Of a stretch of DNA of 64,000 nucleotides, positions 13,985 to 63,215 are shown in pieces; the first letter of the stretch is position 1, and every line of letters begins with the position of its first letter. Position numbers and translations under genes: made by a program. The notes under the pieces are model-generated. The model saw only the letters and a program-made list of their open reading frames with translations, was not told where the DNA came from and searched no databases. Source of the DNA: Symbiodinium natans (Eukaryota > Sar > Dinophyceae > Suessiales > Symbiodiniaceae); NCBI GenBank assembly GCA_905221605.1, contig CAJNDS010002094.1:1-64000 (forward strand), given 5' to 3'.

Positions 13985-14165
13985 AGTGGAGACCTGCGTA
14001 CGCCCTAGAACCCTACATGCCCTCAACCTTCAACACCCCAAAACCCTGTATGCTCCAAACCCTCGATAATTCAATACCTAGACACTGGATTCCCTAAAGC
14101 TGGAAACCCGAAAGCCCTAAATGCCCTAAACCCTCCATGCCCTCAACCCTGTCTAAAACCCTTCT
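13985..14165 (+). repeat. degenerate telomere-like (CCCTAAA/CCCTCAA) tract
   Basis: Repeated CCCTA/CCCTC-AAA-type words (CCCTAAATGCCCTAAACCCT and similar) with many substitutions. They resemble the CCCTAAA (TTTAGGG) repeat of plant-type telomeres, also used by dinoflagellates, but the array is old and interstitial. Confidence 0.7.
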
Positions 14166-57791: not shown

Positions 57792-58369
57792 TCATTGCCC
57801 AACACACCTTAGGAGTCGACTCGGCATTTTGCGTACATGCAACCGCTCCGTTGCGCTTTAAGGCACCGGCATTTGCGCACCCAGCTTACAGCATGCACAT
57901 TCGAGCCTCATGCCTTGAATTCTGCTATTGGTCGGCTACGTTGTGCTTCCGAATGATGTTTATCGAAACATCATGAAACATCCAAACACATGAGACCGTG
58001 GTATGGATGTTTGCCATGTGCGTGGTTCTGTTTGTTTTGTAGCCTTCCTAACACGCACTTATGTCGCCAATGCTTGCCCCCAACGCAGAAATCCCCATGA
58101 TTTGAACAACCATGCCTTCCACTTTTGATCCAAACGCCTGTGCCCGCGGCACTTGGGCGGCATCCCACAACCCTTATACCAGCACCGCAATTGCCCCCCC
58201 CCAAACCCTAAACCCATGCAAAACTGAGCAGCCACCGGCCTTTGCGGCGTGAGAATTCCTGTGCTCGATTTGGGTTCGCCCTTCTGGTTCAGATTCCGGG
58301 GCTCTGGTGCGCACGCTCTCTCGTCCGCGATGCTGTGAGAGTCCGACAGCGTTTTTTTTTTTTACCGCA

Positions 58370-58651: not shown

Positions 58652-58656
58652 AGCAG
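58652..58656 (+). repeat. target-site duplication, left copy (AGCAG)
   Basis: AGCAG directly before the 5' LTR, identical to 63211-63215 directly after the 3' LTR, as expected for integrase-mediated insertion with a 5-bp stagger. Confidence 0.93.
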
Positions 58657-58833
58657 TGTGAGCAGTTTAAGTACTTGGCTCACGTTTGATGCCTTACATG
58701 TCATGACATCCGTGAATCCAGAGTGATTGCATATGATTGCATCAGACTTGCCTTGGCAATGCCTTGGCTCAAGTGACCGGGTGAAAAAATGCTTGCTGCG
58801 TCAAAGCTGTGCTTGATTGAGCTGTGACCAACA
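58657..58833 (+). repeat. 5' long terminal repeat
   Basis: 177 bp starting TGTGAGCAG and ending GACCAACA, matching 63034-63210 at 174 of 177 positions by eye. It contains the 10-mer TTGGCTCAAG, identical to the 3' end of the dinoflagellate spliced leader. Confidence 0.95.
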
Positions 58834-58853
58834 CAGGGTTATCAGCCGTAGCT
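58834..58853 (+). promoter_or_regulatory. probable primer-binding site
   Basis: CAGGGTTATCAGC immediately after the 5' LTR resembles the TGGTATCAGAGC initiator-Met-tRNA primer site of copia elements, with an extra T and mismatches. Position is right, sequence only approximate. Confidence 0.5.
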
Positions 58854-58862
58854 GTAGGTGCC

Positions 58863-59615
58863 ATGGCGACGGACGATGCGACATCAGGACGCATCTACAT
58901 CAAAGATCTGCCAGAGACTGGTTCTGATTATGAGGGCTGGCGCTTCACGTTGAAGAGTCAAATCTTGCGTGTAGCACCGGACCCAGTGGCAGCCATGGCT
59001 TACATCAGAGTGTTTGATGATGAAGCGGTTTCCTTTGGCGATTTGGTGTCAAACTTGTCCGTAGACATGAACAAAACAGACGTGAATGTTTTCGCAGCGG
59101 TGGTTGCCGCATGTCAGAAGGGCAAGAAAGGACCGGAGATCCTCAAGCTGATACAATCACGTGCGCAGTTTGGTTGTGGTCGTCAGGCTGTCCGCATCGT
59201 TGATCAGTGGCACTTGCATGAGTCAACGCATTTAGCCACGGAGGCTAACACCAAGATCCAAGAGCTCAGTTGTTCTGGATTGTCGGAGCTTGACAGCTAC
59301 ATGGCATCTTTTTCGTTGCTTCGTCACCAGATGGGTTCCGGCGAGCATAAGCTCACGAATGCTGGGGGCATTGCGCTTCTGAAGCGCAAACTCAAAAACA
59401 TCAAAGAACTGGATGCCACTTTTGCCGTTTTCAATGCCAGCAATTCTGTGGATTTAGACGCCTTGATCTATGCCATCAACGGTTTGATTGCACATCGCTC
59501 GGAAAAGGTAGAAGGGCGAAAAACGCAGATGTCACATCTTCATCTGGGCGATCACGGTCTCGCCGCGGATCGCATCCATCGGATGCAGATTCGGAACGTG
59601 CTTCTCAAGGCCTAA
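58863..59615 (+). CDS. gag: copia-type Gag protein
   Basis: 250-aa capsid-like protein of the LTR element. The ATG at 58863 has a good context (GTGCCATGG) and is the first ATG after the 5' LTR; the frame is open upstream only by non-ATG codons within the LTR. The sequence has the Gag/UBN2 helical pattern: a Trp-containing start ('YEGWRFTLKSQIL'), 'VDQWHLHESTHLATEANTKI', 'LDSYMASFSLLRHQM' and 'LIYAINGLIAHRSEKVEGRK'. It would package element RNA into virus-like particles. There is no CCHC zinc knuckle at the C-terminus, unlike most copia Gags, which fits loss of sequence between gag and RT. Confidence 0.8.
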   Translation: MATDDATSGRIYIKDLPETGSDYEGWRFTLKSQILRVAPDPVAAMAYIRVFDDEAVSFGDLVSNLSVDMNKTDVNVFAAVVAACQKGKKGPEILKLIQSRAQFGCGRQAVRIVDQWHLHESTHLATEANTKIQELSCSGLSELDSYMASFSLLRHQMGSGEHKLTNAGGIALLKRKLKNIKELDATFAVFNASNSVDLDALIYAINGLIAHRSEKVEGRKTQMSHLHLGDHGLAADRIHRMQIRNVLLKA

Positions 59616-59670
59616 CTGTCGCACAAAACCCGGCGTCTCCAGCACACAGTGGATCACATCCCCCCATCCG

Positions 59671-60837
59671 ATGCTGACTCGGAACGATCCAGGCCAATTT
59701 TTTTCCAATCACAATCGGACGAGCACCGAATTGCAGCCAAACGGCATACACAGTTCGGATGCTGATTCCGAGAGGTCGCAGCAGCCGAGCAATGTTCTTG
59801 ACAATGGGGCCTTCTCCTCCACGGTAACGTTTGAAAGTGATCGATCTGGACTCAGCACAGTCGTTCGCAGTGGGACGGTTCTCACGACGGCTGCAGCGCT
59901 CAGATTGGAACAGTTGCTGGACAAGTTGACAACTGAGCTCGGGAAAATGTTCGCTTGTGTCACCAAAATACTCAAACGCAAGGATCCAGAGTGGAATACA
60001 AACGCCGCGCGTGCAGCCATCCGCAAGGAGGCGGCAAACCACGCATCGAAGCGGACTTGGGATTCCGAAGCATGTGAATGGGAAAGTGCTGTGGCCAAGT
60101 ACGGGCCTGACGTGGAGTACGTGCAGGCAAATCTTATCTTGGGGATCAAGCACTACGAACTCGATCAGTCCCAGCACCGGTTCAAAGCTCGCATAGTTGC
60201 GCTCGGAGACAATGTGCGTGACATCTACGGCCGCCTTGTGGAGGAAGACCAATTGCACGGTCGACCCATTACACTTGAGGGATCGCGGGCGCTGGATTGC
60301 TACGCTGGTTTGCAACCCGACGGCGATTGTCAGACTGCTGACGCTGATGGTGCGTACTTGCATGCTCGACTCAAAGGTCGTCCGAAGGTTATTTGTTTGC
60401 CGAAAGAATTTCGCACACAAGCAGAGCTGGAGATGCGATGTCCAGTTCACCTTTTGTACATGGCCATCTACGGGCTCACGCATTCAAACAGCGACTGGGA
60501 AGATCATGCTGACGAGCGGTTGTTGCTTAAGCATTGGCTGCAAGCTCGTGACATTGAGCGTCCGATGTTCAAAAAGGAATACAACGGACACATTGTGGGC
60601 ATGGGCCGTTTTGTGGATGATTTCAAGTTGGCGGGGCACAAACCAGTGCTACCACACGCATGGGCTGAGATTTTCGAGCGCTTCGATTTCGCAGACCCAC
60701 CTCAACCCGTCAGCCGATTTGTAGGTTCCGAAGAAATACTGTCACGTGACCATGCTGATGTTGCCACGTTTCTTGTCAAGCAGGATGCTTACATCGATAC
60801 CTTCACGCGGAAGTATTTGGATGAGATTGCGGCCTAA
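59671..60837 (+). CDS. pol: copia-type reverse transcriptase (pol fragment)
   Basis: 388-aa frame in a different phase from gag. Residues 170-179 'RFKARIVALG', 224-232 'DADGAYLHA' (first catalytic Asp region), about 261-268 'LLYMAIYG', and 314-317 'FVDD' (the YVDD catalytic box with Phe for Tyr) follow the order of the RVT_2 family. It copies element RNA into DNA. The frame stops at TAA 60835-60837 inside the conserved connection to RNase H; homology continues in another frame from about 60837, so this is a damaged pol, not a natural end. The first about 100 residues do not match RT and may be a remnant of the protease/integrase junction. Confidence 0.88.
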   Translation: MLTRNDPGQFFSNHNRTSTELQPNGIHSSDADSERSQQPSNVLDNGAFSSTVTFESDRSGLSTVVRSGTVLTTAAALRLEQLLDKLTTELGKMFACVTKILKRKDPEWNTNAARAAIRKEAANHASKRTWDSEACEWESAVAKYGPDVEYVQANLILGIKHYELDQSQHRFKARIVALGDNVRDIYGRLVEEDQLHGRPITLEGSRALDCYAGLQPDGDCQTADADGAYLHARLKGRPKVICLPKEFRTQAELEMRCPVHLLYMAIYGLTHSNSDWEDHADERLLLKHWLQARDIERPMFKKEYNGHIVGMGRFVDDFKLAGHKPVLPHAWAEIFERFDFADPPQPVSRFVGSEEILSRDHADVATFLVKQDAYIDTFTRKYLDEIAA

Positions 60838-61495
60838 AACTTCCACGATACGACACACCAGTTGTGAAGCTCGCGGCCAGTGATGTGTCCAGCATGAATG
60901 AACCAGGTCAGTTTGCCTCAAATTGTGGGACGTACGTGGGGGCCGGATTGTGGATAGCTCGGAATAGTCGTCCTGAGATGTCTTTTGCTGTTGGATGGTA
61001 CACTACAAAATGGACCAAGAGACAGGATGCGGCCTTGCATCGTCTCATGGGATATCTAGCAGCTACTCAGTCCTCTATCCTGCTGATGTTCTGCAACGCA
61101 CTCTGAGACTAGTACTGTGGGTCGACTCTGACTGGGCGACAGATCCTGAAACCAGGCGATCGACGTCAGGAGCTGTTTTGCAACTCGTTGGGTCGCATGG
61201 CGCTCGCGCGACATTTGCTTGGAGATCGCATCGACAAGGTGCAACTGCATTGTCGGCGCCAGATGCCGAAGTGACTGCTATGGCTGAAGGTGTCAAGCGC
61301 CACGGGATCTGTGCAGAAGATCTTTTCGAGTTTTTGTTGGGATATCGAATTCCATTAGACATCATGACCGATTCAGCAACAGGCATCGCCAAAACCAGCA
61401 CTGACGATAACCTCGCAGATATCATGACGAAGGCATTGGGGAAGAACAAGTTCCAGCATTTTTCACGGCTTTTGGGAGTTCACCCGCATGGTTGA
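60838..61495 (+). pseudogene. pol: copia RT C-terminus and RNase H, frameshifted
   Basis: Continuation of pol broken by two frameshifts. About 60838-61103 reads the RT connection ('IARNSRPEMSFAVGWYTTKW') in frame 3. From about 61100 the RNase H follows in frame 2 ('LWVDSDWATDPETRRSTSG', 'TFAWRSHRQGATALSAPDAE', 'NLADIMTKALGKNKF') to the stop at 61493-61495. The RNase H Asp and Glu positions look intact, but no single open frame links them to the RT. The shifts could be mutations or sequencing errors in this copy. Confidence 0.85.
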
Positions 61496-61920
61496 GATTT
61501 GCATGGGCTTTTACAGCATGGTGATTTCGTTGTCATGATTATGCGCATGTGTTGCTTGATTTTCCGCATGATCTCATGATTGATTTCGTGATTTTCGTTG
61601 GATGCATGAACAGTGCAGATTTTCTAGGCTGTTGATTGATTTGCTTGACACCTGCATCTCACGGTTCGCATCGCGGAGCATCGCCAAGCTCTTTAGCAAT
61701 CGCCTGGCGTGTTTGACTGGCTGTGCCTACAACATCCTGCGGCGACTTTTACAGGTCTCGAAATCTGGCACACTTGTCGCGCCGGGGCAATTCTTTCCAA
61801 CACATGAGAGACCTATGAAGCGCCCCTGCACATCCCGGTGCTGAACTCCTTCAGCAACCCCAATGTGCCTTCTACATTTTCACAGCACACACCGGGTGCG
61901 TGTGCGTGTGCGTGCGTATC
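61496..61920 (+). other. non-coding tail of the LTR element
   Basis: Unique sequence between the RNase H stop and the telomere-like arrays; TGATTT-type words at 61520-61600 and a GTGCGT tract at 61888-61916. No gene seen. Confidence 0.5.
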
Positions 61921-62027
61921 AAACCCTAAACCCTAAACCCCAAACCCTAAACCCCAAACCCTAAACCCTAAACCCTAACTCCTAAACCCTAAACCCTAAC
62001 TCCTAAACCCTAAACCCTAAACCCTAA
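61921..62027 (+). repeat. CCCTAAA telomere-type array
   Basis: About 15 copies of CCCTAAA with occasional CCCCAAA or CCCTAACTCCTAAA variants. This is the C-rich strand of the TTTAGGG repeat used at plant-type telomeres. Confidence 0.95.
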
Positions 62028-62180
62028 ACCCTAGGCCTAAAACCCTAGGCCGAAAACCCTAGGCCCAAACCCCTTAGGCCCAAAATACTTAGGCCCAAAA
62101 CCCTAGGCCCAACACCCTAGGCCCAAAAACCTAGGCCCAAAACCCTAGGCCCAAAACCCTAGGACCAAAACCCTCCCCAC
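62028..62180 (+). repeat. 14-bp AGGCCCAAAACCCT array
   Basis: About ten copies of a 14-mer that fuses CCCTAGG with CCCAAAA, apparently derived from the adjoining CCCTAAA array. Copies differ by one or two bases. Confidence 0.9.
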
Positions 62181-62227
62181 TCCCCCACTCCTGTTGTTCT
62201 GGTCGCAAAATATGTTTTATAGCGTTA

Positions 62228-62288
62228 TTTAGGGTTTAGGGTTTAGGGTTTAGAGTTTAGGGTTTGGGGTTTAGGGTTTAGGGTTTTG
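62228..62288 (-). repeat. inverted TTTAGGG telomere-type array
   Basis: About eight copies of TTTAGGG (one TTTGGGG, one TTTAGAG) on the plus strand, opposite in orientation to 61921-62027, so the two arrays face each other across about 200 bp. Confidence 0.92.
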
Positions 62289-62293
62289 GGCCT

Positions 62294-62795
62294 GGGGAGT
62301 GGGGGAGTGGGGGAGTGGGGGAGTGGGGGAGTGGGGGAGTGGGGGAGTGGGGAGTGGGGGAGTGGTGGGGGAGTGGGGGAGTGGGGGAGTGGGGGAGTGA
62401 GTGGGGGGGTGGGGGAGAGTGGGGGAGTTGGGGGAGTGGGGGAGTGGGGGAGTGGGGGAGTGGGGGAGTGGGGGAGTGGGGGAGGGGGAGTGGGGGGGGG
62501 AGTGGGGGAGTGGGGGAGTGGGGTGCGGGGGAGTGGGGGAGTGGGGAGAGGGGCGTGGGGGAGTGGGGGGGGGGGAGTGGGGGGTGGGGAGTGGGGGAGT
62601 GGGGGATGGGGAGTGGGGGGGTGTGGGGGAGTGGGGATGGGGGGAGTGGGGGAGTGGAGTGGGGGAGTGGAGTGGGGAGTGGGGGTGTGGGATTGGGGTA
62701 GGGGGAAGTGGGGGTAAGTGGGGGGGAGTGGGGAAGCGGGGAGTGGGGGGGAGTGGGGGAGTGGGGGAGTGGAGGGGAGTGGGGGAGTGGGGTGA
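62294..62795 (+). repeat. G-rich 8-bp minisatellite (GTGGGGGA)n
   Basis: About 500 bp of GTGGGGGA units with deletions and runs of up to ten G. Long Gly/Trp/Val frames on plus and Pro/Leu/His/Ser frames on minus are artefacts. It has strong potential to form G-quadruplexes on the plus strand. Confidence 0.95.
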
Positions 62796-62799
62796 GAAG

Positions 62800-63033
62800 G
62801 GGCCTGGGCGGTGCTATAAGCAAATGGAAGGGGCCTGGGCGGTGAGCCAGCTTGCGAGCGGTAGCGGCCGCACAGGTCGTACCCATCATCATTTTGCAGA
62901 AGCACTCTTTTGTACAGATTTTCTTCGGTGCTGGCGTATTCTTGTCGCAAGATTCAGCAGACGGGACAGAAGTCTGCACACTTTGATTCCATTTTCCTTT
63001 GACTGTGATGCCATGCTCGGCATGGGGGCGTTG
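62800..63033 (+). other. unique 3' tail before the LTR, weak polypurine stretch
   Basis: A GGGGCCTGGGCGGTG duplication at 62800-62843, then ordinary sequence. CATGGGGGCG at 63021-63030 is the only candidate polypurine primer site, and it is weak. Confidence 0.4.
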
Positions 63034-63210
63034 TGTGAGCAGTTTAAGTACTTGGCTCACGTTTGATGCCTTACATGTCATGACATCCGTGAATCAAGAG
63101 TGACTGCATATGATTGCATCAGACTTGCCTTGGCAACGCCTTGGCTCAAGTGACCGGGTGAAAAAATGCTTGCTGCGTCAAAGCTGTGCTTGATTGAGCT
63201 GTGACCAACA
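63034..63210 (+). repeat. 3' long terminal repeat
   Basis: 177 bp matching the 5' LTR except for one C-to-A and two T-to-C differences, same TG...CA ends. Confidence 0.95.
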
Positions 63211-63215
63211 AGCAG
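63211..63215 (+). repeat. target-site duplication, right copy (AGCAG)
   Basis: Identical to 58652-58656; see the left copy. Confidence 0.93.

Follow-up and report, generated by a model that had tools for sequence, protein, structure and literature searches.

Class 2 templated sequence insertions are described as DNA patches at double-strand breaks (PMC5110952), and interstitial telomeric sequences of rodents and primates as insertions at breaks, with a "no modification" class of 31 of 130 rodent and 4 of 25 primate loci (PMC2246262). In dinoflagellates, whose telomere repeat is TTTAGGG (PMC11453091, PMC11508785), introner elements carry inverted repeats at the intron ends (PMC7789003, PMC9860276, PMC10522408; review PMC11453091). 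All these papers are used here in excerpt. We analysed a copia-type retrotransposon, at 58657-63210 of a 64,000-nucleotide stretch of Symbiodinium natans DNA (contig CAJNDS010002094.1, positions 1 to 64,000, hereafter the window), that holds telomere-like arrays between pol and its 3′ long terminal repeat (LTR). The arrays lie in an insert that probably patched a break in this copy, and similar arrays elsewhere in the genome seem to flank the exons of some genes.

The genome searched comprises 759.4 Mb in 2,543 contigs, and the LTR family is small in it, with 29 LTR places (28 candidates, all scored). A search with the segment 61496-63033 found six places, on C2130, C2127, C1347, C2481, C1302 and C2297, that match query positions 27-156 (or 151) and then 1350-1538. 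When aligned, all six run from 61651 directly into 62845, without loss or gain of a single base there, and they are 97-99% alike in the 3′ region. The 62845-63033 part alone found 12 places (12 of 12 candidates scored), which are the window, the six near-identical copies and five partial ones. Three diverged partial copies (C2374, C2089 and C1769) cross the point insert-free and the other two are uninformative.

Thus, the point is closed in all nine informative copies and 61652-62844 is an insert in the window copy only. No insert at 61651/62845 was found in any of these nine, and the window alone has it among the 12 scored 3′-region places. A first-pass annotation of the window had singled out the segment 61496-63033. 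Of this, 61652-62844 is foreign, and the 156 bp to its left and the 189 bp to its right are ordinary element sequence common to other copies. The pol stop and the 3′ LTR of this family thus normally lie about 345 bp apart, and the insert accounts for the greater distance in the window.

The first-pass annotation had offered either capture of telomeric sequence by the element, with dispersal by its family, or later insertion of the arrays. The latter agrees with the nine informative copies, all of which lack arrays at that point. Capture and dispersal had been said to fall if other family members lacked the arrays, and this is what every testable copy shows. Mobility had been expected to appear as the same arrays in copies with different target-site duplications (TSDs). 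The TSDs do differ, as three of the four other copies checked have their own 5-bp duplications (ACCTT, CTAAA and CAGGG) and the fourth has none visible, with LTR pairs differing by 0, 1, 1 and 2 bases; the cargo is in none of the nine. We therefore rejected a mobile telomeric cargo. The copia element does not spread telomeric DNA, and with that claim removed the composite element is better described as a patched retrotransposon copy.

The features of the element and its insert are as follows.

58652-58656, unstranded: 5′ target-site duplication AGCAG
58657-58833, forward strand: 5′ LTR, 177 bp, TG...CA
58821-59615, forward strand: gag-like open frame, 264 aa, labelled by position, without Pfam match
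59528-59529, forward strand: joint left by an internal deletion, with 2,315 bp of copy L009 missing in the window copy
59512-60837, forward strand: pol remnant, of which about 60157-60798 matches copia-type reverse transcriptase (RVT_2), under the Pfam cut-off
60977-61495, forward strand: candidate RNase H-like end of pol, labelled by its motifs, without Pfam match
61496-61651, forward strand: left-hand part of the element's 3′ non-coding region, up to the insert, present in other copies
61652-62844, unstranded: insert, 1,193 bp, missing from 9 of 9 informative other copies
61652-61919, forward strand: insert piece 1, with one other genome place, C1112:64103-64394
61920-62033, forward strand: insert, CCCTAAA array
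62034-62192, forward strand: insert, CCCAAAACCCTAGG array, its end being CCCCACTCCCCCACTCC
62193-62227, forward strand: insert, satellite spacer, its core present 9 times in the genome
62228-62284, forward strand: insert, TTTAGGG array
62285-62793, forward strand: insert, GGGGAGTG minisatellite
62794-62844, forward strand: insert, start of a 31-mer array continuing elsewhere in the genome
62845-63033, forward strand: right-hand part of the element's 3′ non-coding region, after the insert
63034-63210, forward strand: 3′ LTR, 177 bp
63211-63215, unstranded: 3′ target-site duplication AGCAG

The first-pass account of the element's outline stands. The paired LTRs (58657-58833 and 63034-63210) align gap-free with 3 mismatches over 177 bp, AGCAG at both flanks (58652-58656 and 63211-63215) makes a 5-bp target duplication, and the stretch between the pol stop at 61495 and the 3′ LTR, given as about 1.5 kb, measures 1,538 bp in the window copy and consists largely of CCCTAAA, CCCAAAACCCTAGG, TTTAGGG and GGGGAGTG arrays. 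The CCCTAAA and TTTAGGG arrays and the minisatellite were also recovered there by Tandem Repeats Finder (TRF), which called 61921-62174 (7- and 14-mers), 62228-62290 (TTTAGGG, 9 units) and 62294-62802 (GGGGAGTG, about 63 units). The TRF-called arrays are not due to chance.

The insert has two sources. The alignment of piece 1 (268 bp) with its one other place, C1112:64103-64394 (2 of 2 candidates scored), shows 3 substitutions together with two gaps, of 17 and 6 bases. To judge from a direct repeat around it, the matching stretch at C1112 looks as if it had itself been inserted or were excisable.

Piece 2 (61920-62844, about 925 bp) corresponds to about one unit of a composite satellite that is present at other places in the genome, with the order CCCTAAA, CCCAAAACCCTAGG, CCCCACT, spacer, TTTAGGG, GGGGAGTG and 31-mer. 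This order occurs on C1619 as two units in tandem and on C1018 without the left CCCTAAA array, and its core on C602, C708 and C1714. Whole or in part, the satellite is at C1619 (L018), C951 (L016), C1820 (L017), C602 (L027), C708 (L004), C1018 (L026), C1714 (L019), C41 and C729. The near-invariant 30-bp core of its spacer has 9 genome occurrences with at most 3 mismatches (control 0).

Both edges of piece 2 are cuts inside arrays. The left one falls within the satellite's CCCTAAA array, and the right one, which is also the insert's right edge, within the 31-mer array that runs on in C1619, C951 and C1820. The joins of the insert are either blunt or have one base in common, and they show neither a target duplication nor the deletion of any copia base. 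Neither join touches telomeric repeats, as piece 1 forms the left and the 31-mer array the right. Hence telomerase need not have acted at the putative copia break, and a telomerase-made insert was rejected.

Most probably, a double-strand break in the copia copy was patched with DNA from two other loci. A copia-type element would have integrated with a 5-bp target duplication, a break would then have arisen in the 3′ non-coding region of the integrated copy, and a two-part patch would have closed it, with about 268 bp templated by C1112 and about 925 bp, or roughly one unit, of the composite satellite. C1112, or a lost relative of it, would be the template rather than the product. One break and a two-source patch thus account for the insert features by a single event, and the arrays are best explained as bystander DNA rather than cargo of the element. 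Plant filler DNA is a comparable case of templated filling. The putative break apart, the insert has the marks of a templated patch, namely an empty counterpart, no TSD and distant-locus templates. The last two and the simple join are shared with the class 2 insertions as far as PMC5110952 is excerpted here. This insert differs in its pair of donors, which includes a telomere-like composite satellite, and in its target, a dinoflagellate retrotransposon copy. The loci of PMC2246262, in the part used, likewise have telomere motifs opposite an empty counterpart and include the "no modification" class, which this insert matches, whereas here the joins and most of the insert are non-telomeric.

Several points weigh against this patch reading. 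On either side of the C1112 match, at about 3098-3408 of L015 (C1112:61000-68000), stands a direct repeat of 13 bp, near-perfect, GTCCTCCT[G/A]CATC, for which the patch offers no explanation. The later date of the insert relative to the element is presumed. Moreover, the published insertions compared here are mammalian.

Template switching onto satellite or telomeric RNA during reverse transcription of the window copy would have brought the insert in with the element. It also yields no target duplication, and the 2.3-kb internal deletion in the same copy could stem from a template jump. However, it needs jumps to satellite RNA and to a C1112 transcript and then a landing on precisely the nucleotide left before, without loss or repetition of any base, and the insert is present in no other testable copy. 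Because of the exact return, we rank it below the patch and regard it as unlikely.

Even less credit is due to two other explanations, each of which we consider very improbable. The insert could be a mobile unit of its own, telomere-capped or with inverted repeats, that transposed into the copia copy, since other loci show all or part of the composite unit's core in the same order; ciliate TBE elements, with their telomere-like ends, are a known parallel. Against it, the insert has no target duplication, piece 1 is not repeated along with the composite unit and on the right the insert stops within a 31-mer array that is longer elsewhere. An assembly error could have joined arrays from elsewhere into the element, as such arrays are hard to assemble, many relatives lie on 5-40 kb contigs and the published S. 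natans assembly is, in the excerpt used, a PacBio/Illumina hybrid (PMC8045281). Yet piece 1, with its one other copy, sits between copia and the array, both copia halves are inside the same TSD and the window is N-free. The patch at a break accordingly remains our preferred explanation of the insert.

The patched copy is thereby explained and of modest interest; the arrays that seem to flank exons matter more. The pattern AAACCCTAAACCC N(100-130) GGGTTTAGGGTTT, where CCCTAAA is followed by TTTAGGG, has 244,473 genome matches against 69,446 in the reverse order (control 0 for both), with matches overlapping inside arrays, so that match counts are not locus counts. With N(300-330) the orders are close in number, at 181,767 (control 1) and 163,976 (control 0) respectively. 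Hence the orientation bias is strong at the exon-size spacing and weak beyond it.

Among the matches listed, the same 268 kb of contig C1 has 46 separate places against 7 reverse ones (binomial p 4e-8). The first listed match on C1 is at 235.5 kb and no pair spaced 100-130 bp is present in the window, which suggests that the pairs are clustered. At about 2 matches per place, as on C1, extrapolation gives places of the order of 100,000 genome-wide. Over two stretches of C1, each of 10 kb, 11 of the 14 gaps from a CCCTAAA block to the next TTTAGGG block measure 85-149 bp, and the 14 reverse gaps 54-3,978 bp. Many of the former gaps look exon-like by eye. Examples of exon-sized segments bracketed by arrays are L043, L044 and the dynein loci L045-L048, L051-L054 and L057.

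Dynein heavy-chain genes allowed an exon test within one gene family of one genome, with edges set by Pfam matches rather than transcript splice sites. The Pfam family AAA_6 matched 37 places (92 of 92 candidates scored), and we examined the flanks of 24, on 12 contigs, which are short exon-like matches; the 13 left out are the long ones and a few others. Read on the coding strand, nine of the 24 exons have both CCCTAAA upstream and TTTAGGG downstream at a distance of 200 bp or less (C1812, four; C96, two; C1971, two; C204, one). Their exact motifs total 87 CCCTAAA and 9 TTTAGGG upstream, and 4 and 53 downstream. The arrays lie 9-86 bp upstream and 0-53 bp downstream of the Pfam match edge, and none of the nine exons has the reverse arrangement on both sides. 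The array flanking in this sample is all-or-none by contig.

Together, the orientation bias and the nine dynein exons suggest that the introns of some genes are bracketed as TTTAGGG...CCCTAAA, with inverted repeats of the telomere motif apparently at their two ends. One putative 888-base intron, with ends read by eye, is predicted to fold at -369 kcal/mol with its ends paired, while 12 dinucleotide shuffles of it average -279 kcal/mol (s.d. 6.3). An early guess that CCCTAAA...TTTAGGG pairs are telomere-capped linear inserts came from a sample biased by its own query. It was dropped because exon flanks agree better with the genome counts and with the exon test, in which the putative introns read TTTAGGG...CCCTAAA, the opposite of a capped fragment.

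Tentatively, with rather more doubt than confidence, these observations may be joined into one reading in which the telomere motif would be an element of gene structure, shared by a large set of genes. Each exon would lie between CCCTAAA and TTTAGGG, and the intron RNA could form one long hairpin that joins its ends. As a putative origin, both ends of a break in an exon could have been healed by telomerase and rejoined, giving exon-TTTAGGG(n)-CCCTAAA(n)-exon. As a putative role, such introns could have been kept because the stem helps splicing at weak splice sites. The insert in the copia copy would then be a spill-over of telomere-motif DNA. What weighs against the exon-flank reading is that both motifs are absent from the 200 bp on either side of 15 of the 24 dynein exons (eight contigs), that two flanked exons (L046 and L047) have more TTTAGGG than CCCTAAA upstream and that the downstream motif counts of another (L048) are equal.

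As described in the excerpts of the introner papers, the introner elements bear on the exon-flanking arrays rather than on the copia insert, since both would place inverted repeats at the intron 5′ and 3′ ends. They differ in that the exon-flanking repeats are tandem arrays of the telomere motif, much longer than the 8-20 nt inverted repeats of the Amoebophrya introners. A table row of PMC10522408 lists 5099 (14.5%) for S. natans, apparently the genes with introner elements. The excerpts of PMC7789003, PMC9860276 and PMC10522408 do not describe telomere motifs in the introner role. Likewise, no telomere motifs bracketing exons appear in the parts used of the literature on dinoflagellate and Symbiodinium telomeres, introns, introners and retrotransposons (including PMC8110479 and PMC8045281, with few subscription papers). 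If telomere repeats of fixed orientation do bracket introns at exon spacing some 100,000 times, in the order extrapolated from one contig, this intron architecture is apparently undescribed, and telomerase, intron gain and splicing would become linked.

The element itself is best explained as a low-copy, recently active Ty1/copia-type element of Symbiodinium. It resembles Ty1/copia elements in its LTR ends and its 5-bp TSD, and perhaps also in an integrase-type match upstream of the reverse transcriptase region in copy L009 and a weak RVT_2 match. Unlike their norm, the window copy lacks about 2.3 kb of coding region and has the insert in addition. The copy is defective, with its coding region spread over several frames. 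The loss of about 2.3 kb relative to L009 is at 59528/59529, with a 2-bp overlap at the deletion joint.

The frame 59512-60834 matches RVT_2 with an E of 4.2e-5 and 23.7 bits, below the Pfam cut-off of 31.6, and the other three element frames submitted have no Pfam match. In L009, upstream of the stretch equivalent to the window's RVT_2 region, SH3_retrovirus scores 40 bits, over its cut-off, and rve 26.4 bits, under it; two L009 pieces covering the reverse transcriptase and RNase H have no Pfam match. The pol relatives include a best match of 86% over 76% of the query, one of S. natans of 87% over 25% and one of Symbiodinium sp. CCMP2592 of 67% over 56%. An Rfam search of the window gave nothing at the gathering scores. 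Further short CCCTAAA stretches are present in the window at 14092-14130 and 58203-58215, one of them about 450 bp upstream of the 5′ LTR.

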